A DNA stretch of 64,000 nt, from the NCBI GenBank assembly GCA_030645475.1, contig JAUSMA010000067.1, positions 62,001-126,000 of the forward strand, read 5' to 3'. Of this stretch, positions 4,271 through 20,923 are shown one piece after another. The notes beneath the pieces are model-generated. The model was not told the origin of the DNA and ran no database searches. It was given only the letters and a program-made list of their open reading frames with translations. The DNA comes from Nitrospirota bacterium (GTDB taxonomy: Bacteria > Nitrospirota > Nitrospiria > Nitrospirales > Nitrospiraceae). Within the stretch, counting starts at the first letter, position 1. Each line of letters starts with the position of its first letter. The translations under genes and the position numbers were made by a program.

Positions 4271-4789
4271 CTACTTATCGGAATGTCCGGGGAACTTGTG
4301 CCCGAGGGATTGCGGAAAGGTCACAGTACCATCTGGAAATTCCTGTCCATGCTGCCACAAGTGATAAATCACCCCGTCTGTCCCTGCCGCAATTTCTGCC
4401 ACCTTGGCAGCCTGATCAGCCGGCATATCGAGGATCTGAACGCGGCCCGTGGCGATTTCGACTTTATGATCGTGGAAATGGCGGTGCCACTGGATCGCGG
4501 GCAGCTTTCGCGTAAGATCCTTCGCGACGAAATATTCGATGGCCACTAATTTGGCTTTAGGATCCGTAGAATCGAACAGCAAACATTGGAGAATCTGATC
4601 TGAAACCCCCTTACAGTAGTGATGGAACGGCCCACCAGGGGTCCCGTCGGCCATCATGTGCGGAGCTTGCACGTGGATATCGAATCCTTCGACCGGAGAT
4701 TTCGGCTCCCCGCTGACAGCCTTCTGCGGAGCCACTCCGGCACATCCGATCGCCGCAATCGCGACCATGGCAAGCAGACCTTTTCTCAT
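4271..4789 (-). CDS. DUF1264 family lipoprotein-like protein
   Basis: The core contains the hallmark segments of DUF1264: HHYCKGVSDQILQCLLFDS, then AKLVAIEYFV, IQWHRHFHDHKVEI, and a C-terminal IYHLWQHGQ. Fungal and plant relatives are oil-body-associated proteins; bacterial members have no proven activity. The N-terminus MRKGLLAMVAIAAIGC fits an export signal ending in a lipobox-like AIGC, suggesting a lipid-anchored periplasmic protein. The ATG at 4789 follows AGGAGG by nine bases; a GTG at 4792 is less likely. Its neighbours are a cytochrome c and a di-haem peroxidase. The His-rich core could bind metal, but that is inference. Confidence 0.8.
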   Translation of the reverse strand: MRKGLLAMVAIAAIGCAGVAPQKAVSGEPKSPVEGFDIHVQAPHMMADGTPGGPFHHYCKGVSDQILQCLLFDSTDPKAKLVAIEYFVAKDLTRKLPAIQWHRHFHDHKVEIATGRVQILDMPADQAAKVAEIAAGTDGVIYHLWQHGQEFPDGTVTFPQSLGHKFPGHSDK

Positions 4790-4972
4790 CACAATAGACC
4801 TCCTGAGGTTGGGGTTGGTTGACCGAACTGAATTGACCTGGCCGTCTAAACCCTGACATAGGGCTTCAGAATACTGAGAGTCCGGTCCACACGAAAGGAT
4901 TCATGTATCAATATTTTTAGCGATTATTTTCTTCCGTTAAGAATCAGCTGAGACCAAACCATTACTTCTCAA

Positions 4973-6052
4973 CTACTTAGGCAGTTTCGGCATCTCAAAC
5001 TTTATCGGATCCCCAGTTAACGACTTGAGAAATGCCACCACATCGGATTGTTCATCCGGCGTAAGTCCCAAGGGCTTCACCAGGGGACTCAGATTCGAAT
5101 TTGGGCCACCTCCGCTATTGAGGAACGCGACGACCTCATCAAGCGTCTTGAAGGCTCCGTCATGCATGTAGGGCGCGGTCTCGATAATGCTCCGCAGCGT
5201 CGGCGTTTTGAAGGCGCCTTTGTCTTTTTCCGCTTTGGTCACATAGTAGCGCCCCAGATCCTCTTTCAGCGGGCCGACTTGAGGGACGCCGAGATTATGG
5301 AATTGGTTATCGGTGAAGTTCGATCCGTTGTGACAGAGGATGCAGCGCGCCTTGCCTTTGAACAAGGCCAGACCTCGCACGGCGGATTCATCCATGGCTT
5401 TCACGTCGCCGGCTACATACTTATCGAAGGCGGAGTTCGTGGAAATGACGGTCCGTTCATAGGCAGCAATGGCCTCGGCAATTCCTTGCAGATTCACCTC
5501 GGTCCCAAAGACGGCCCGGAACTGCTGCTGGTAACCCTTGACCTTGCTGAGTTTGCTGACGACATGCTCATGCGTCTCTCCCATCTCGATCGGATTCTGG
5601 ATCGGCCCGATGGCCTGCTCTTCCAGCGAGCGCGCGCGTCCATCCCAAAACTGCACATGATTAAATGCCGTATTATAAACTGTGGGCGACTGCCGTCCAC
5701 CTACACCGCCGTCGATCCCGATGGAGGTTTGGCGAGGATCGGCAAATCCGGTCCCAGGGTTGTGACAGAAGGCACAGGAGATGGCCCCATTCTTCGACAG
5801 ACGGCCATCGAAGTACAGTTGCTTGCCGAGGTCGACTTTCGCCTTGTAGTTCAGATTCGTGGAGGGTGTCGGAATCGACGTCGGGAGTGGGCCGATATCA
5901 GGAACCGTCACCCCATCGATTGTCACCGTTCCATGCGGCGCAGAGCCGGAAGGTGATGCCTGCGCTGACCGCAGATCGTCGAACAGACATACCGCTGTTG
6001 CAGAGACCACCAGCCCAACCAGGCTGACCGCCAACGCTCGATTTTTCGTCAT
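4973..6052 (-). CDS. di-haem cytochrome c peroxidase (MauG/CcpA family)
   Basis: The product (about 359 aa) has a signal peptide and two CxxCH motifs, CAFCH at residues 93-97 and CILCH at 237-241. This is the hallmark of bacterial periplasmic di-haem peroxidases, which reduce hydrogen peroxide with electrons from small cytochromes, and of the related MauG oxidases. Conserved features such as the AFNHVQFWDGRA and YMHDG segments are present, as is the C-terminal FLKSLTG ending. The start at 6052 is chosen because GGAGGA lies seven bases before it; the ATG at 6058 would leave almost no spacing. The mono-haem cytochrome at 3728-4174 is a plausible electron donor. Confidence 0.9.
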   Translation of the reverse strand: MTKNRALAVSLVGLVVSATAVCLFDDLRSAQASPSGSAPHGTVTIDGVTVPDIGPLPTSIPTPSTNLNYKAKVDLGKQLYFDGRLSKNGAISCAFCHNPGTGFADPRQTSIGIDGGVGGRQSPTVYNTAFNHVQFWDGRARSLEEQAIGPIQNPIEMGETHEHVVSKLSKVKGYQQQFRAVFGTEVNLQGIAEAIAAYERTVISTNSAFDKYVAGDVKAMDESAVRGLALFKGKARCILCHNGSNFTDNQFHNLGVPQVGPLKEDLGRYYVTKAEKDKGAFKTPTLRSIIETAPYMHDGAFKTLDEVVAFLNSGGGPNSNLSPLVKPLGLTPDEQSDVVAFLKSLTGDPIKFEMPKLPK

Positions 6053-14914: not shown

Positions 14915-15409
14915 CTATCAGCCGTCTAATCAGTTCCTCCCCTTTGTAAGGGGAGGCTAGGAGGGGTAGAGGCTCATGCCCAGAGCCATAAGAGGACAAG
15001 CCAACCACCTCGATATCAAGCGCCGTCTTCGCTCTACCATGACCGGTCCTGAAACACGGCTGTGGTCAAAACTGAAGGCACGACAATTTCATGGGCTCAA
15101 GTTTCGTCGGCAGCATGGCATCGGGCCATACATTGTGGACTTCTATTGCCCGGAACAGTCGCTCGTCATTGAAATAGACGGCGACAGTCATGCCAGCGCC
15201 GACCAGATCCTGAAGGATCAGCTGCGCGACAGATACTTCCAGTCACTCGGCCTGCACGTGATTCGATACTGCAACGACGATATTGTGAAGAACCTGGACG
15301 GGATGCTCGAAGATCTATCCGGGAAGATATCGTTAGGAGCGACCTCCCCTAACCCCTCCTTACGAAGGAGGGGTGAAGAAGCTGAAGGCTGATCGCTGAC
15401 GGCTAATTA
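14913..15409. mobile_element. nested repeat element carrying the DUF559 nuclease gene
   Basis: Outer arms are 7-base-period repeats: AGCTATC AGCCGTC at 14913-14933, and the inverse at 15381-15409. Inner arms are palindromes: CCTCCCCTT/AAGGGGAGG (14936-14956) and CCCCTCCTT/AAGGAGGGG (15353-15373). The DUF559 gene lies between. The same inner ends recur without the gene at 17461-17572 and 18385-18498. The left arm supplies the ribosome binding site and the right arm supplies the protein's C-terminal codons. RecQ, on the other strand, ends inside the right outer arm. Confidence 0.65.
14976..15392 (+). CDS. DUF559 endonuclease-like protein
   Basis: The 138-residue product matches DUF559 (related to Vsr/restriction-type nucleases). 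It begins with the family motif MTGPETRLWSKLKARQF, then FRRQHGIGPYIVDFYC, LVIEIDGDSH and FQSLGLHVIRYCNDDI. The VDF aspartate and the ExDG pair probably form the metal-binding nuclease centre. The upstream GGAGGGG site and the C-terminal tail SPNPSLRRRGEE are both encoded by the flanking repeat, so gene and repeat appear to be one unit. Substrate and physiological role of DUF559 are unknown. The stop lies ten bases from the recQ stop (convergent). Confidence 0.85.
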   Translation: MPRAIRGQANHLDIKRRLRSTMTGPETRLWSKLKARQFHGLKFRRQHGIGPYIVDFYCPEQSLVIEIDGDSHASADQILKDQLRDRYFQSLGLHVIRYCNDDIVKNLDGMLEDLSGKISLGATSPNPSLRRRGEEAEG

Positions 15410-17280
15410 TCCCCATTCACCGCGGCCAAAACGCGCCGGCCATAACGCTCCGCCTTCAGATCGCCGATGCCGGGAACCTCCAACAGCGCGGCCGGCGTCG
15501 CAGGCTTGTAACTGGCAATCGCTTTCAATGTCTTGTCATGAAAAATGATGAAGGGCGCGACGTTCTCTTCTTCGGCCAGCTCCGTGCGGAGTTGCCGGAG
15601 CCGTTCAAAGATCTGTTGATCTGCCGGCGAGGCTCCCAGTGCCACGATCGGCACAGATGTATCGCGGGACGGCTTCTTCAACGGCGACTCGCGCGGGTGC
15701 TCCTCCACACTCTTCAAGAGCACAACACCGGTCCCTCGCAGAATCTCCTGCCCTCGACCAGTCAGATCGATGGTGGGGTACTCTGCGCCTTCAACCTGGA
15801 GATAGCCGGAATCGATCAGACCCTTCACAAGCCCGGTCACGGATGGCTTCGAGAGCGCACGACAAGTCCCGTACATTGGGCAGGCTTCTCCGCCAAATGC
15901 CAACAGGGCTTTCGAACGGCTGCCACGGAGGATCTCGACGATACGGCTCACCCCGAAGCGTCCCCCACACCAGGACACGGTCTCCAGAACGGCCTTTGCA
16001 GAAGCGGCATCGTCACGGGACACCTCTCTGCTGAGTTGCCTCACCGGAACCTCGCAGCGATCGCAGAGGCTACAGGGGCCCAAGGCCCGCTCGGCTTCAT
16101 CGCTGAAGTAGTCGAGAATCGCGAGTTGCCGGCAGGTCGGCACGGACACATAGCCCAGCATTTCTTGAAGTAACGTTCTCATCCGCGCGGCGCGGTCCGA
16201 GCCTTCAGAGTCCTTTGCCGCCAGCTGAATGAAATATTCCTGCGTGGCCAGATCCCGTTCATGGAACAGCAGCACACAGGAAGCGGGCTGTCCGTCGCGG
16301 CCGGCCCGCCCGACCTCCTGGTAATAGGCCTCGACACTTCCCGGAATGTCGAAATGGACGACCAGCCGAACATCCGACTTATCGATGCCCATACCGAAGG
16401 CGTTCGTCGCAGCGAGAATCCTGACGGTTCCCCGGCGAAAGTCGTCATGCACAAGCCGCCGCTCCTCATCGGATAGACCTGCATGGTAGTAGGCCACCGA
16501 TTGCTGAGACTGCCCCAACCATTCCGCCACTTCTTCGACAGCCCGGCGCGTGGCGCAATAGACCAGGATCGTGCCTTTCTCCCTCTCGCGAACCAGACGC
16601 TCCAAGATTGCCAGCTTCTCCTGGCGCGACTGACAGGGACGAACGGACAGGGCGAGATTTGGCCGCCGAAAGCCTGAGACCAATCGAAGCGGATCGCGGA
16701 GCGACAGCCGTTTGCACAGATCGACTTGCACTCGGGTGGTGGCGGTGGCCGTCAAGGCGAGGCAGGGAGGATTGGTCAGTTCCTGGCGGAGGCGGCCGAT
16801 TTTGAGATAGTCCGGCCTGAAGTCGTGGCCCCACTGAGAGATACAATGCGCTTCGTCGACTACCAGCAACGAGACCCAGAGGGTACGCAAGAGCTGGAGA
16901 AACCCCTCATGCTGCATCCGTTCAGGTGCCAGATAGAGCAACTGCAGCCGCTTCTGATTGAGGTCTTGAATCACGCGGTGCTTTTCAGATCCGGTGAGTC
17001 CCGAGTGAAACGCCGCCGCCCTGATCCCTCGCTGCTTTAAGCTGGCCACCTGATCTTGCATGAGGGCGATCAGCGGAGAAATCACCAGGGTCAATCCCGG
17101 CAGGAGGGTCGCCGGCAATTGATAACAGAGCGATTTCCCCTGCCCCGTCGGCATGACCGTCATCGCGTCTCGCCCAGCCAGCACGGCGCGAATGACCTCC
17201 TCCTGGCCAGGCCGAAACGTCGCAAAGCCGAACTGTTCGCTGAGCTGTCGAGTCAGATCATCCACGGTAAGGTTATTCAA
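15403..17280 (-). CDS. recQ: ATP-dependent DNA helicase RecQ
   Basis: The 625-residue product has the SF2 helicase motifs FRPGQEEVI, MPTGQGKSLCYQLPA (Walker A), VDEAHCISQWGHDFRPDY (motif II and RecQ aromatic loop) and AFGMGIDKSDVR. A zinc-binding RQC region follows (CRQLAILDYF and CSLCDRC), and a C-terminal HRDC domain ends near LLEVPGIGDLKAERYG. RecQ unwinds recombination intermediates with 3' to 5' polarity. The start is a TTG at 17280 without a clear ribosome binding site; a GTG at 17265 is an alternative. The gene ends inside a repeat arm next to the DUF559 gene. Confidence 0.93.
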   Translation of the reverse strand: MNNLTVDDLTRQLSEQFGFATFRPGQEEVIRAVLAGRDAMTVMPTGQGKSLCYQLPATLLPGLTLVISPLIALMQDQVASLKQRGIRAAAFHSGLTGSEKHRVIQDLNQKRLQLLYLAPERMQHEGFLQLLRTLWVSLLVVDEAHCISQWGHDFRPDYLKIGRLRQELTNPPCLALTATATTRVQVDLCKRLSLRDPLRLVSGFRRPNLALSVRPCQSRQEKLAILERLVREREKGTILVYCATRRAVEEVAEWLGQSQQSVAYYHAGLSDEERRLVHDDFRRGTVRILAATNAFGMGIDKSDVRLVVHFDIPGSVEAYYQEVGRAGRDGQPASCVLLFHERDLATQEYFIQLAAKDSEGSDRAARMRTLLQEMLGYVSVPTCRQLAILDYFSDEAERALGPCSLCDRCEVPVRQLSREVSRDDAASAKAVLETVSWCGGRFGVSRIVEILRGSRSKALLAFGGEACPMYGTCRALSKPSVTGLVKGLIDSGYLQVEGAEYPTIDLTGRGQEILRGTGVVLLKSVEEHPRESPLKKPSRDTSVPIVALGASPADQQIFERLRQLRTELAEEENVAPFIIFHDKTLKAIASYKPATPAALLEVPGIGDLKAERYGRRVLAAVNGDN

Positions 17281-17363
17281 AAAATTGGAGGTGGCGATGA
17301 GTGAGCTAGCGAGCTGAGTATAGAGGACTGACAGACGGTGGGCAAGCCGGAGCTCGGGCCTCT

Positions 17364-17432
17364 AGCCATCAGCTCTCAGCAGTCAGCAATCAGCTGATGA
17401 GGGAAAATACTTCAGAGGCTGAACGCTGACGG
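17364..17432. repeat. inverted heptamer-repeat hairpin, AGCNNTC type
   Basis: Five 7-base units (AGCCATC, AGCTCTC, AGCAGTC, AGCAATC, AGCTGAT) run from 17364 to 17398, followed by a short spacer and an inverse arm at about 17413-17432 (GGCTGAACGCTGACGG). It lies upstream of recQ. A further array of four AGCNNTC-type units is at 17581-17608. Confidence 0.7.
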
Positions 17433-17460
17433 ACAGGGGGCTATCTGCTGTGAACTATTT

Positions 17461-17608
17461 CTCCCTTTATAAGGGGAGGCAGAAGGGGTAGCGCCTCTGC
17501 GCTCAATCAATCCTTGGTCGTAACAGTCGAATGAGGAGCGACCTCCCCTTGCCCCTCCTTACGAAGGAGGGGGAGAAGAAAGCGCTTAGCCTTCAGCTGT
17601 CAGCTTCT
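17461..17608. mobile_element. gene-less copy of the DUF559-associated palindrome element (1)
   Basis: The left palindrome at 17461-17479 (CTCCCTTT..AAGGGGAGG) and the right palindrome CCCCTCCTT-ACG-AAGGAGGGG at 17552-17572 match the two ends of the DUF559 element, with the same flanking words GGGGTAG on the left and GAGCGACCTCCCC on the right. Only about 70 bp separates the ends, and no DUF559 remnant is visible. After it come heptamer units to 17608, then AATAGATTTCGGAGAATGAG at 17613, which is also found after the third copy. Confidence 0.7.
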
Positions 17609-17660
17609 ACAGGAATAGATTTCGGAGAATGAGAGGAGGACCAACGAATGGCGAAACACA

Positions 17661-18056
17661 TTATCGCGCGGCCAACGTGGAAAACTGGTCCGAGTGCAGG
17701 AGCCGCTCATCGGCTGTCAGGAGCGTCAATCCGTACACAGCGGCAGTTGCAGCAAGAAACCGATCGGCTGGATCTTGATGAGACAGATCGATGTGCCGAC
17801 TCATCAATGCAACGGCATGGGTAAGAGGAGCTTCCCGAAATGGAATCGTATCCAGCAGACGCTGAATCCATGCAGCCGGGTCAGGTTGAAGTTGAATACG
17901 CTTCTTCTCCGCCAACAGATGCACTTCCCAGAGTGTGATGGGGGACAGCCAGAGCTCGTTGTGGAGGTTTTCCAACTCGGTTCTTATCTCTGACGAAAGT
18001 TGATCCGGGTCGAGCACGCTCCAGAGCAGAACGTGGGTATCGAGCAGAAGCTTCAC
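17661..18056 (-). CDS. PIN-domain toxin (VapC family)
   Basis: The product (about 131 aa) has the PIN-domain acidic residues in order: LLLDTHVLLW at the N-terminus, SPITLWEVHLL in the first third, and DPADRFLAATA plus LLTADERLL near the C-terminus. PIN toxins of the VapC type are Mg-dependent RNases that cleave tRNA or rRNA. The start is a GTG at 18056 overlapping the antitoxin stop by four bases (GTGA), giving coupled translation. An in-frame ATG at 18074 would lie inside the antitoxin gene and is less likely. The pair is bracketed by two gene-less palindrome elements. Confidence 0.88.
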   Translation of the reverse strand: MKLLLDTHVLLWSVLDPDQLSSEIRTELENLHNELWLSPITLWEVHLLAEKKRIQLQPDPAAWIQRLLDTIPFREAPLTHAVALMSRHIDLSHQDPADRFLAATAAVYGLTLLTADERLLHSDQFSTLAAR

Positions 18057-18322
18057 GCGCGAAGGGCTTCCCATTTCTCAGGGCTGGAGATGGGATTGAT
18101 AATGTCACCAGTGATGGCACCGGAACTGGAGAGCGAGCCCAGCCATGACTGTGGCATCGATGAGGGAGGGGGTGGCCCCACCTGCGCGATAGGCTCACCC
18201 TTGCGAAGGACCAGAATAGGTTTTTTCGTTCGGTTGACTTTGGCAAGAATAGCCAAACAGGTCGCCTTGAAATGAGAAATCGAGACTTCTTCCATCTCAG
18301 TATGTTTGCGCACTTTACTCAT
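18053..18322 (-). CDS. Phd/YefM-type antitoxin for the PIN toxin
   Basis: The 89-residue product contains the Phd-type N-terminal DNA-binding half (VSISHFKATCLAILAKVN, then RTKKPILVLRKGEPIAQV) and a Pro/Ser-rich C-terminal tail that would bind the toxin. In this antitoxin family the N-terminus represses the operon and the C-terminus neutralises the toxin. It overlaps the toxin gene by four bases. Two direct TTGACCATRGT repeats lie upstream and are the probable operator. The -10 box is so close that the mRNA may be leaderless. Confidence 0.87.
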   Translation of the reverse strand: MSKVRKHTEMEEVSISHFKATCLAILAKVNRTKKPILVLRKGEPIAQVGPPPPSSMPQSWLGSLSSSGAITGDIINPISSPEKWEALRA

Positions 18323-18328
18323 ACTGAA

Positions 18329-18357
18329 ACCATACCATGGTCAATGACTATGGTCAA
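18329..18357 (-). promoter_or_regulatory. promoter and operator of the Phd-PIN module
   Basis: On the minus strand, TTGACC at 18357-18352 and TATGGT at 18334-18329 are separated by 17 bases, a good sigma-70 pair. The expected transcript start falls at about the A of the ATG at 18322, suggesting leaderless translation. Two copies of TTGACCATRGT span the -35 and spacer and are likely the antitoxin-binding sites. Confidence 0.6.
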
Positions 18358-18384
18358 CGACACAAGCGACGGCTACGATCTATG

Positions 18385-18498
18385 CCTCCCCTTTTTAAGG
18401 GGAGGTCAGGAAGGGTAGAGTCTCTGCCCTCGCCAGATACGCCGGTCGTTGCAGCCCGATAGAAGCGCCTCCCCTAACCCCTCCTCACGAAGGAGGGG
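18385..18498. mobile_element. gene-less copy of the DUF559-associated palindrome element (2)
   Basis: CCTCCCCTTT..AAGGGGAGG at 18385-18405 and CCCCTCCT..AGGAGGGG at 18478-18498 repeat the two ends of the DUF559 element. The inner words GGGTAGAG..CTCTGCCCTC and CCTCCCCTAACCCC are conserved as well. It is followed by AGCTATCAGC at about 18512 and by AATAGATTTCGGAGAATGAG at 18532, shared with copy 1. Copies 1 and 2 lie in the same orientation on either side of the toxin-antitoxin pair. Confidence 0.7.
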
Positions 18499-18575
18499 GG
18501 AAGAATGAGCACAGCTATCAGCTTTCCAAGAAATAGATTTCGGAGAATGAGAGGAAGACACTCGGAATGTTCCCA

Positions 18576-18776
18576 TCAGACTAGGACCTCGACGCTCTGG
18601 TCCAAAGCCAGCTCCGCCTTGCCCTCCATGGTTTCCAGCCAGCCCGCAACGGCCTCCTTTACATTGGCCAGAGCTTCTTCATGATTCTTGCCTTGAGACA
18701 AGCAGCCAGGCAAGGCGGGTACTTCTGCCACAAAATATCCGGCTTCATCCTGCTCAATCAGTACGTGGAGCTTCAT
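18576..18776 (-). CDS. HicB-family antitoxin-like protein without HicA partner
   Basis: The 66-residue product MKLHVLIEQDEAGYFVAEV.. continues with PALPGCLSQGKNHEEALANV and ends ALDQSVEVLV: the partial RNase-H fold of HicB antitoxins. The ATG at 18776 follows AGGAG by eight bases; the longer upstream frame has no site. HicB normally sits beside a hicA double-stranded-RNA-binding toxin, but neither flank here contains one; the downstream side is occupied by the palindrome element. It may be an orphan or the remnant of a broken module, or a member of the HicB-like solo proteins. Confidence 0.8.
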   Translation of the reverse strand: MKLHVLIEQDEAGYFVAEVPALPGCLSQGKNHEEALANVKEAVAGWLETMEGKAELALDQSVEVLV

Positions 18777-18894
18777 CGCAATTTCTCCTATTGCCCAGGC
18801 AAGCCAGCGGACGCGTGATGGGTGCAAGTGTGCTGCATGGATTGGACAGTGACAAGCTCTCCTCCATACCGACTGACAGCCATCAACAACACAA

Positions 18895-18937
18895 AAAGAA
18901 GCCCCGCTGGGGATCTCCCAGCGGGGCTTTCTTTTTT
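18895..18937 (-). terminator. strong Rho-independent terminator after the porin gene
   Basis: An 11-bp GC-rich perfect stem (GCCCCGCTGGG at 18901-18911 and its complement at 18917-18927) is flanked by AAAGAA on the left and TTTCTTTTTT on the right. It would terminate transcripts on both strands. It lies 50 bp beyond the porin stop and before the HicB gene. Confidence 0.85.
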
Positions 18938-18989: not shown

Positions 18990-20660
18990 TTAGAAATTCA
19001 TCCAAAGCTGGACATAGGCCCAATCTTGGTTGCTGCTGGTACCCAGGTTCTCCCGGATATAGCTGCCGGCAAACAGGTGGCCATAGGCCGCCTGGAAGGC
19101 CAACTTGCCATCCATGAACATATGGGTCCAAGCCACATCCAATTCGTCGCCGATGTGCTTCTTGGTGTTGCCGTTCTTCGAGAAGACATAGACGCCCTGT
19201 GAACCACGGTACCAGTTGTCCTGGCTATTCGCCAAGTTCAAGCTGGTGGCCCAGACTTCAATGTGGTCGTCCTTGGTCGGCCTGGCTTGGAAGTTCACCG
19301 AAGGGCTCATCATGTTCTTCCAGGCCTGGACATCCATGTACCCCATGTGGATGTGGTTGGTCGGGAACATATTTTCAAACGTGTTCGCCGTCTTACAGCC
19401 GGTTGCCGTGGAGCCAGCGATCGTACAATTTGCGCGACCATCGCCTGAGGCATAGTCGAAGTTGAAGGCCAACCGTGGCTTCCAGGATGACTGGTAATGG
19501 GTGTAGCCGATCCAGTTTCTGGTTGCCCAGGCGCTGATGCTCAGATTCTTCTGATTACCCAACGAAGCTGCGGTTGCATTCTGACCACCCGAGTCACCCA
19601 TTTGTCCGAACTGGTAGGTGATTTCATTGATGGCGTCGAAGTTGCCCTTGCGCATTTCGATCCGGTTACCCACGCTGTGGCGGGTCTGGTTCGAGTGCTT
19701 ATTCGTGCCCAACCCTTGAGCTTGGTTGGTCCCGTTCGGGGTGGCGTTCTTATACATGAAATAGTAGGGCTCGATCAGGAAGCCCGGCACCGACTTGATC
19801 TGGTTGTAGAAAATCAACATGTCGGCATCGGAAGTGGCGCCAGTTTGCCCCACTGCGCCGCCCGTCACGTTGCCTCCAACACTGCCGACTGGAGCACCCT
19901 GCGCCAAATCACCTTCTTGCGTCCGGAACCATCCGAGGTAGCTGTCAAAGGCCTTGGTGCTGTATTGCAACATCACACCGTCATGGGAGAATCCTGTATT
20001 GGCCCAATCGAAGTGGCCGAACAAAGAATGGTTTCCGAAGACGATATATTGACGACCGGCCTTCACGCTCAGTCCTTGAATGCCCGCAAAGTTCCGCACC
20101 AACATATAGGCAGCCCGGACGCCCAAGCGGCCTTGGTTGCCAGTCGCCGTGGAGCCAAAAGCACCGTTATGGTTCAACGCATCTCCGCCCACACCGGTGT
20201 TGGCGCCCCAGACGGCTGAGTCGATGATTTCCATGTAGAAATTCACGTCCGGCGAGAGGTCGTAGCCGATGCCCAAGCGGGTCATCTGTTGGACGTAAAA
20301 GTCATTGGCAGATTTACCAAGATTTGCTTTTCCATTCAGCGCGTTACAAGCACCACCCGATGGGCTGCCGCCGCCGAAGCAAACGCCGTTCCGCATTTCA
20401 GGTCTGACGCGGAGGTCGGCACGAATCCAGAAGTTCTTAAGATCGAAGTTCTTGCCGATCTTCGGATCGTAGAGTTCGTAGGCTTCCTTCTGCGGAATTG
20501 CGCGAGGAATGGCCGGGACGTTGGTGATCTTCTCACCCTCCGGCAATTCAAACGCGGCTTGCGCCGGGGCTGTCCCGAACGACAGGCCCGCAGCCATGAC
20601 GGCCGCACTGAAGAAGGTGGCCATACCGGCCCACCCCATTCGTCTTTGGATACTTTGCAT
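18990..20660 (-). CDS. alginate-export-family outer-membrane porin
   Basis: The product (about 556 aa) has a long signal peptide (MQSIQRRMGWAGMATFFSAA.. with cleavage near AQA) and a beta-barrel body with many Gly/Asn/Trp-rich strands. It ends in QLWMNF, with the terminal Phe needed for barrel insertion. Segments such as LRVRPEMRNGV, VKAGRQYIVFGNHSLFG and WATRNWIGYTHYQ are typical of the alginate_exp/AlgE-like porins abundant in Nitrospira; the natural substrate is unknown. GGAGGA lies six bases before the ATG at 20660. A strong terminator follows. It is probably highly expressed, judging by the good ribosome site and terminator. Confidence 0.85.
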   Translation of the reverse strand: MQSIQRRMGWAGMATFFSAAVMAAGLSFGTAPAQAAFELPEGEKITNVPAIPRAIPQKEAYELYDPKIGKNFDLKNFWIRADLRVRPEMRNGVCFGGGSPSGGACNALNGKANLGKSANDFYVQQMTRLGIGYDLSPDVNFYMEIIDSAVWGANTGVGGDALNHNGAFGSTATGNQGRLGVRAAYMLVRNFAGIQGLSVKAGRQYIVFGNHSLFGHFDWANTGFSHDGVMLQYSTKAFDSYLGWFRTQEGDLAQGAPVGSVGGNVTGGAVGQTGATSDADMLIFYNQIKSVPGFLIEPYYFMYKNATPNGTNQAQGLGTNKHSNQTRHSVGNRIEMRKGNFDAINEITYQFGQMGDSGGQNATAASLGNQKNLSISAWATRNWIGYTHYQSSWKPRLAFNFDYASGDGRANCTIAGSTATGCKTANTFENMFPTNHIHMGYMDVQAWKNMMSPSVNFQARPTKDDHIEVWATSLNLANSQDNWYRGSQGVYVFSKNGNTKKHIGDELDVAWTHMFMDGKLAFQAAYGHLFAGSYIRENLGTSSNQDWAYVQLWMNF

Positions 20661-20923
20661 AAGCGTTCCTCCTGTGAATTGGATAACAGCCGCCACCGGT
20701 GCACGTTCCGGCGCTGCGCTGCCGACTTGACATCCAACTGCATGCACGGTCATGACTCGCTCTCTTTGATTCCTGCTCTGCGGAGAACCGAGACCCCGTT
20801 GTGCCAACGGCGTCTCTTCCTCCCTTAACCACTACCAACTTGCCCGAACCGACTTGATCTGACAAACAATTTTAGGTTTTTGACGCGCAGCCCATCGGCT
20901 CGGCTCGCCTTTCCCGCCGCCTG

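Follow-up and report, generated by a model that had tools for sequence, protein, structure and literature searches.

A repeat-bracketed PIN/Phd pair beside recQ in a Nitrospirota bacterium: a probable joint in a variable toxin-antitoxin site

When a toxin-antitoxin (TA) gene pair lies between two direct copies of a short palindromic repeat, did the pair arrive with the repeats, or did the repeats come to lie around a pair that was already resident? This question is raised by a 64,000-nucleotide stretch (here, the window) of the 3.75-Mb genome of a Nitrospirota bacterium (G000; GenBank assembly GCA_030645475.1, contig JAUSMA010000067.1, positions 62,001 to 126,000). The left border of the spacer concerned is a recQ helicase gene (15403 to 17280) whose product matches the DEAD, Helicase_C, RQC, and HRDC domains, each above cut-off. 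The right border is a gene for an outer-membrane porin of the alginate-export family (18990 to 20807), with a G+C-rich inverted repeat and a T run on its 3′ side (18893 to 18935) that is a probable terminator and delimits the spacer at the porin end. From recQ to the porin gene, the order is element copy 1, a short shared word, a PIN gene, a Phd gene, element copy 2, the word again, and hicB; recQ, PIN, Phd, hicB, and the porin gene are all on the minus strand, and elements and words are given on the plus strand. The VapC-like PIN-domain toxin gene (17661 to 18074; 137 amino acids [aa]) matches PF01850 with an E value of 1.7e-15, which passes the Pfam cut-off. The Phd/YefM-like antitoxin gene (18053 to 18322; 89 aa) overlaps the start of the toxin gene, matches PF02604 weakly (E = 6e-5, below the Pfam cut-off), and is also the partner of PIN in the mapped relatives. 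As the two genes overlap and belong to known antitoxin and toxin families, they qualify as a predicted type II TA pair. The hicB-like antitoxin gene (18576 to 18776) is an orphan, as hicA is missing. Between 14800 and 19000, the three matches to known RNA families each fell short of the gathering score and lay in the terminator region on the porin side, none of them at the elements; no plasmid or phage match to 17433 to 18800 was found.

A first-pass annotation of this DNA had described the two repeat copies and a word common to their downstream sides, and both are real. Copy 1 (17460 to 17572) has an imperfect left hairpin at 17460 to 17479 and a right hairpin at 17552 to 17572; copy 2 (18385 to 18498) has its hairpins at 18385 to 18405 and 18478 to 18498. 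The copies have the same orientation, are about 114 nt long, contain no gene, and fold better as DNA than shuffled sequences (z = −3.2 and −2.9). The PIN/Phd pair does lie between them, though less precisely than the original “exactly between” suggests: from copy 1 to the PIN stop codon there are 88 nt, which include the word, and from the Phd start to copy 2 there are 62 nt. The word, AATAGATTTCGGAGAATGAGAGGA, is identical at 24 of 24 nt on the 3′ side of PIN (17614 to 17637) and 20 nt before the hicB stop codon (18532 to 18555), within a 48-nt stretch that is 85% alike between the two places. With up to three mismatches allowed, its first 20 nt occur only at these two places in the window (0 occurrences in 100 shuffles), and its full 24 nt occur only there in the whole G000 genome. 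We rejected the word as a part of the element because it is absent from most element copies and because related spacer sequence, a diverged form of the word, precedes hicA of the HicAB genes in G008 and G011, two relatives with an element-free spacer. The word belongs to the spacer, where it accompanies TA genes, and lies outside the element.

A doubled word might also come about if element and word had been duplicated in tandem as one unit around the TA pair, with no exchange between alleles. The two window words, being identical, are indeed closer to each other than to the word of the relative G009, which differs from them by one mismatch. The element copies, however, are alike in their hairpin ends only; their interiors are hardly related (local score of 11.5 of 54 to 55), so that they do not represent a recent duplication. 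In addition, the right side of copy 2 runs into hicB at the distance from the porin gene that is found in HicAB alleles (see below). We regard such a duplication as very improbable.

To place the spacer in context, we mapped 25 recQ loci of the family together with the window; most of the genomes compared are draft assemblies, and the window's genus is represented by 32 genomes, all of which were searched. A porin match was present in 23 of the 26 stretches, and 24 spacers were readable, including that of G010, which was counted from two contigs with the porin gene on the second; G018 and G027 (no porin gene in the stretch) and G002 (whose contig stops within recQ) were not counted. By hand count, 9 of the 24 spacers hold TA genes, 10 hold no recognised gene (G001, G003, G004, G005, G006, G020, G025, G029, G030, and G031; in G029 the spacer runs for about 490 nt from recQ to a recognised piece of the porin gene and was read by eye only), and 5 hold other genes (G019, G023, G024, G026, and G033). 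The TA genes are of five kinds: PIN/Phd in five spacers (G000, with the orphan hicB, and G009, G010, G012, and G036), HicAB in two (G008 and G011), VapBC in two (G014 and G021), HigBA in one (G021), and a ParE-like pair in two (G021 and G010), with more than one kind in G010 and G021. Family matches are above cut-off for HigA (TIGR02607), HigB (PF05015), VapB (PF09957), VapC (NF047959), ParE (PF05016), and HicB (PF15919), and below it for HicA in G008 and for the antitoxin of the ParE-like pair. Judged by these gene families, predicted type II TA modules vary from genome to genome at this one site, the recQ-porin spacer. The spacer of G033, which belongs to another genus, carries a Y1 transposase gene (L105, oriented positions 4578 to 5327) that is RAYT-like by our reading.

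If the repeats had brought the pair to this site, PIN/Phd should not be found there without them. The first-pass annotation had entertained a composite element and had named synteny of the pair without the repeats as the observation to count against it, and such synteny is what we found. In the finished genome of Nitrospira moscoviensis (L123), the order is porin-Phd-PIN-recQ, as in the window, with no hairpin of this type in the surrounding 12.4 kb. Two genomes of another genus also have PIN/Phd between recQ and the porin gene, G159 with no element in the 8-kb stretch and G036 with the nearest repeat about 2.9 kb off and none adjacent. In a composite transposon, the cargo arrives with its flanking elements; here, the pair is at the site without bracketing elements in all three genomes. 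Moreover, the DNA identity of the TA pair to that of G000 follows the identity of recQ, both in near relatives (TA/recQ, 94.6%/93.4% in G009, 95.6%/91.7% in G012, and 93.8%/90.1% in G010) and in distant ones (71.8%/70.2% in G036, 69.8%/68.3% in G159, and 65.6%/63.6% in N. moscoviensis). As the pair diverges in step with recQ, a vertical signal, it appears to be an old resident. PIN genes of this kind occur in 10 of 147 family genomes (E value of 1e-20 or better), and the pair is most plausibly a long-standing resident of the recQ-porin spacer that was often lost or displaced. Sequence comparison thus suggests that PIN/Phd is older than its bracketing repeats, and we rejected a composite element as the origin of the pair at recQ on the grounds of the repeat-free synteny and the shared divergence with recQ.

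We nevertheless kept a related reading as a rival owing to one genome of another genus, G156. There, a type IV pilus gene cluster contains PIN/Phd (L276, 5027 to 6067), with a full element on one side and a half element on the other; this pair is 86.6% identical to the pair of G000, versus 70.1 to 76.7% to those of its genus mates G036, G088, and G159. This suggests a transfer of PIN/Phd between genera, with brackets that recur where the pair goes, and a pair between elements at another locus in another genus implies that the bracketed unit may also move. Such a unit, element-PIN/Phd-element, would move whole, by means of its outer hairpin elements or by excision as a circle and re-entry at a resident copy; the same orientation of the brackets in G000, G009, and G010 would fit. 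Against it stand the pairs that reside without flanking elements and diverge with recQ in the three genomes above, as well as the interiors of the G156 elements, which are their own, related to each other, and which come without the word. With these interiors and no word, the elements were not carried in their present form from a G000-like donor, and they look locally doubled rather than imported from one. Displaced pairs also occur at other loci in G008 and G088 with no element beside them, so TA movement does not need the element. On balance, movement of the whole bracketed unit seems unlikely to account for the window.

If PIN/Phd is the older partner, what are the repeats? G000 has two further copies: a fourth on contig C11 and, on the far side of recQ, one that bears a DUF559 gene (element, 14936 to 15373, plus strand; hairpins, 14936 to 14956 and 15353 to 15373; gene, 14976 to 15392). 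The C11 copy has an orthologous copy in G003, and the spacer in which it lies varies too much for an empty site or a target-site duplication to be defined. In the examined genomes of family f1, we found 31 right hairpins, including three one-mismatch matches in G033 that are possibly due to chance. By hand count, 22 of the 31 lie within about 10 kb of recQ; the two on contig C13 of G010 were counted among these because that contig carries the porin gene. In another family of the order, copy numbers are higher: six of the seven searched genomes of genus g8 (G038, G041, G052, G056, G058, and G059) have 20 to 119 right hairpins each, with the maximum in G038, and the seventh (G054) has one. DUF559 gave 33 matches, of which 30 had loci that were examined for hairpins; the gene lies between both hairpins in 8 of the 30, as at 14936 to 15392 of the window and at locus L257 of G052, and beside one hairpin in 3.

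The DUF559 copy beside recQ was compared in seven genomes. Its open reading frame (ORF) has diverged much like recQ (mean identities of 80.8% and 78.9%, respectively; 21 pairs), whereas the hairpins are 97.3% and 95.9% alike, which indicates a long-term resident with constrained ends. At locus L097 of G011, the same element has lost most of the DUF559 gene, and this deletion may give a view of how gene-less copies form. The conserved hairpins could be active sites of the DUF559 (Vsr-like) nuclease, with cutting as the trigger of exchange between copies and hence the driver of TA turnover beside recQ. This would be in line with hairpins 96 to 97% alike while the ORFs and recQ are about 80% alike; we consider it a rather doubtful idea. 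As a sole driver, DUF559 was rejected because its presence does not track the number of element copies: no DUF559 match accompanies the 32 right hairpins of G059, G054 has three DUF559 matches and one hairpin, and G009 and G021 have elements without DUF559. At the DUF559-element site beside recQ, G009 has a 23S rRNA intervening-sequence protein gene instead (PF05635; L081, about 2000 to 2510). The same gene occupies this recQ-side site in G018, G019, and G027 (inverted in G027), and in the four genomes it is flanked by TCAGC-type filler in inverted orientation.

In one clade, the TA genes of the recQ-porin spacer are separated by copies of the hairpin element. TA genes are present in six of seven spacers with the element and in 3 of 17 without it (P = 0.004 by Fisher's test, uncorrected for kinship; five of the six are in one clade). 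The two kinds of insert could simply pile up in a tolerant intergenic spacer, the bracket being without consequence. The spacer does take many kinds of insert, non-TA genes in five genomes among them; the elements of G012 are decayed, copy 1 lacking its right half, apparently through a deletion between two GAATGAG-like words; and one half-element is common to G009 and G010. Chance layering, however, leaves unexplained both the doubled word and the flank combinations described next, and we consider it improbable.

To examine the element as a joint, we compared the flanks of 14 copies and distinguished two left flanks (a, next to recQ, and b) and two right flanks (x, word-PIN, and y, ParE-like). 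All four combinations occur: a-x in G009 (copy G009.p1), a-y and b-x in G010 (G010C9.p1 and G010C13.p1), and b-y in G021 (G021.p2). Thus, the flank next to recQ joins the word-PIN flank in G009 and the ParE-like flank in G010. Like flanks score 51.5 to 52.5 of 60 on the left and 60 of 70 on the right, and unlike flanks score at most 24.5 and 8.0, respectively; the left flank types are partly related to one another (up to 24.5; the 99% level of shuffled left flanks is 9.5). Two left and two right flanks in all four combinations point to exchange between them, in agreement with the earlier proposal of recombination between repeats. The a-y and b-x junctions both come from G010, which is 71% complete, and lie on separate contigs. 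A false join there is unlikely, since the two junctions have only 23 identical nt in common and the overlap between the contigs is exactly 55 nt, the pattern that assembly with longer words should give.

The idea that modules can be gained or lost through the repeats also finds support: at one G010 junction, a single element stands in place of what in G021 is a HigBA-interrupted element followed by VapBC and a second element. This comparison is the weaker half of the argument, as the recQ-side flank of G021 is no clear member of either type (24.5 against that of G010 and 29.0 against G021.p2). A search for other cargo between the same repeats, suggested in the first-pass annotation, was successful (HigBA, VapBC, and the ParE-like pair in G021 and G010), and the clean excision of PIN/Phd also sought there was found in no related genome. 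In G021, HigBA lies between the two hairpins of element copy 1 (L091, oriented positions 491 to 1297), the place that DUF559 takes in other copies. On contig C13 of G010 (L106), PIN is internally deleted and the promoter side of Phd is lost; judging from these lesions, this pair is probably dead, yet it still lies between elements.

How would the window itself have arisen? In G000, G008, and G011 alike, the hicB start and the porin stop are 214 nt apart, and the last two genomes keep both hicA and hicB; in PIN/Phd alleles, the distance from Phd to the porin stop is 238 nt (N. moscoviensis) or 255 nt (G012). The left flank of copy 2, which as in G009 is the promoter side of Phd, matches that of G009.p2 (27.5); the right flank of copy 2 is a match to the word side of G009.p1 (31.0). 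The window therefore looks like a joint between the recQ side of a PIN/Phd allele and the porin side of a HicAB allele minus hicA.

We propose, as the more probable account, that the spacer is a variable TA site in which PIN/Phd is an old resident, that elements which came later serve as homology joints where alleles recombine, and that the window records one such exchange. PIN/Phd would have long resided between recQ and the porin gene when the paired-hairpin element, whose gene-bearing form is the DUF559 nuclease element beside recQ, spread locally into the spacer. We infer this order, as well as homologous pairing at the hairpins, from the comparisons above. Element copies would then offer alleles brief tracts of homology for recombination, so that TA modules are joined, dropped, or exchanged. 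If a G009-type allele and a HicAB allele with element and word recombined by a single crossover, the window order would result, with copy 2 (the proposed crossover joint) connecting the recQ side of the former to the porin side of the latter, of which only hicB would remain; the word would be doubled because each parent allele had its own copy. The parent allele that the model needs, recQ-element-word-HicAB-porin, was found in no genome examined. Since the HicAB alleles of G008 and G011 have no element, we infer a HicAB parent that bore both element and word.

Several known systems resemble this arrangement in part. REP/RAYT systems have intergenic palindromes in many copies; the element differs, as no Y1 (RAYT) transposase match was obtained in G000, G009, or the seven g8 genomes. 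Integron gene cassettes are small genes set in arrays, with imperfect palindromes of a single orientation between them; in this region, a simple RYYYAAC/GTTRRRY consensus gave one site, inside PIN, and no attC-type core-site pair. The sites of dif modules are XerC/XerD sites of 28 nt, and no dif-like site was found at 17300 to 18620 when two dif sequences were searched with up to nine substitutions. In the dif (pdif) modules of Acinetobacter plasmids, small adaptive genes including TA pairs are likewise flanked by short repeated sites and reshuffled as modular units (PMC6449649). Those modules are mostly plasmid borne, whereas the element here is chromosomal, about 114 nt long, and made of two hairpins, and its copies have the same orientation. 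The element has the characters of MITE/PATE-type repeats, being short and gene-less, with palindromes near both ends, many copies, and a gene-bearing relative. Like the element, palindrome-associated transposable elements (PATEs), which are related to IS605-type transposons, and MITEs have unlike cores, longer gene-bearing forms, half copies, and core deletions (PMC3119063). Unlike PATEs, the gene-bearing form here holds DUF559, and the element-rich g8 genomes and G000 have no Y1 gene. Our literature search, judged by titles, found no published description of a DUF559-bearing hairpin element; searches for Nitrospira with TA genes and recQ, or with intergenic repeats, found none, and one for palindromic repeats with TA hot spots gave nothing matching, judged from the listings.

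The TA modules themselves (PIN/Phd, VapBC, HigBA, and HicAB) have the family matches and gene orders known for type II systems, their sole unusual trait being that they share one repeat-rich site. Turnover of TA genes and exchange through repeats are ordinary; five TA kinds at one chromosomal spot, hairpin elements as seams, and the strongly conserved hairpins of the DUF559 element are less so. We favour reading the layout as a joint in a variable TA site rather than as a composite element, and a repeat-bracketed TA pair need not have arrived with its repeats. With a fixed recQ/porin frame, five kinds of module, and hairpin joints, the locus offers a chromosomal case in which TA turnover can be traced junction by junction, and the uncharacterised hairpin element that bears DUF559 is a candidate driver.
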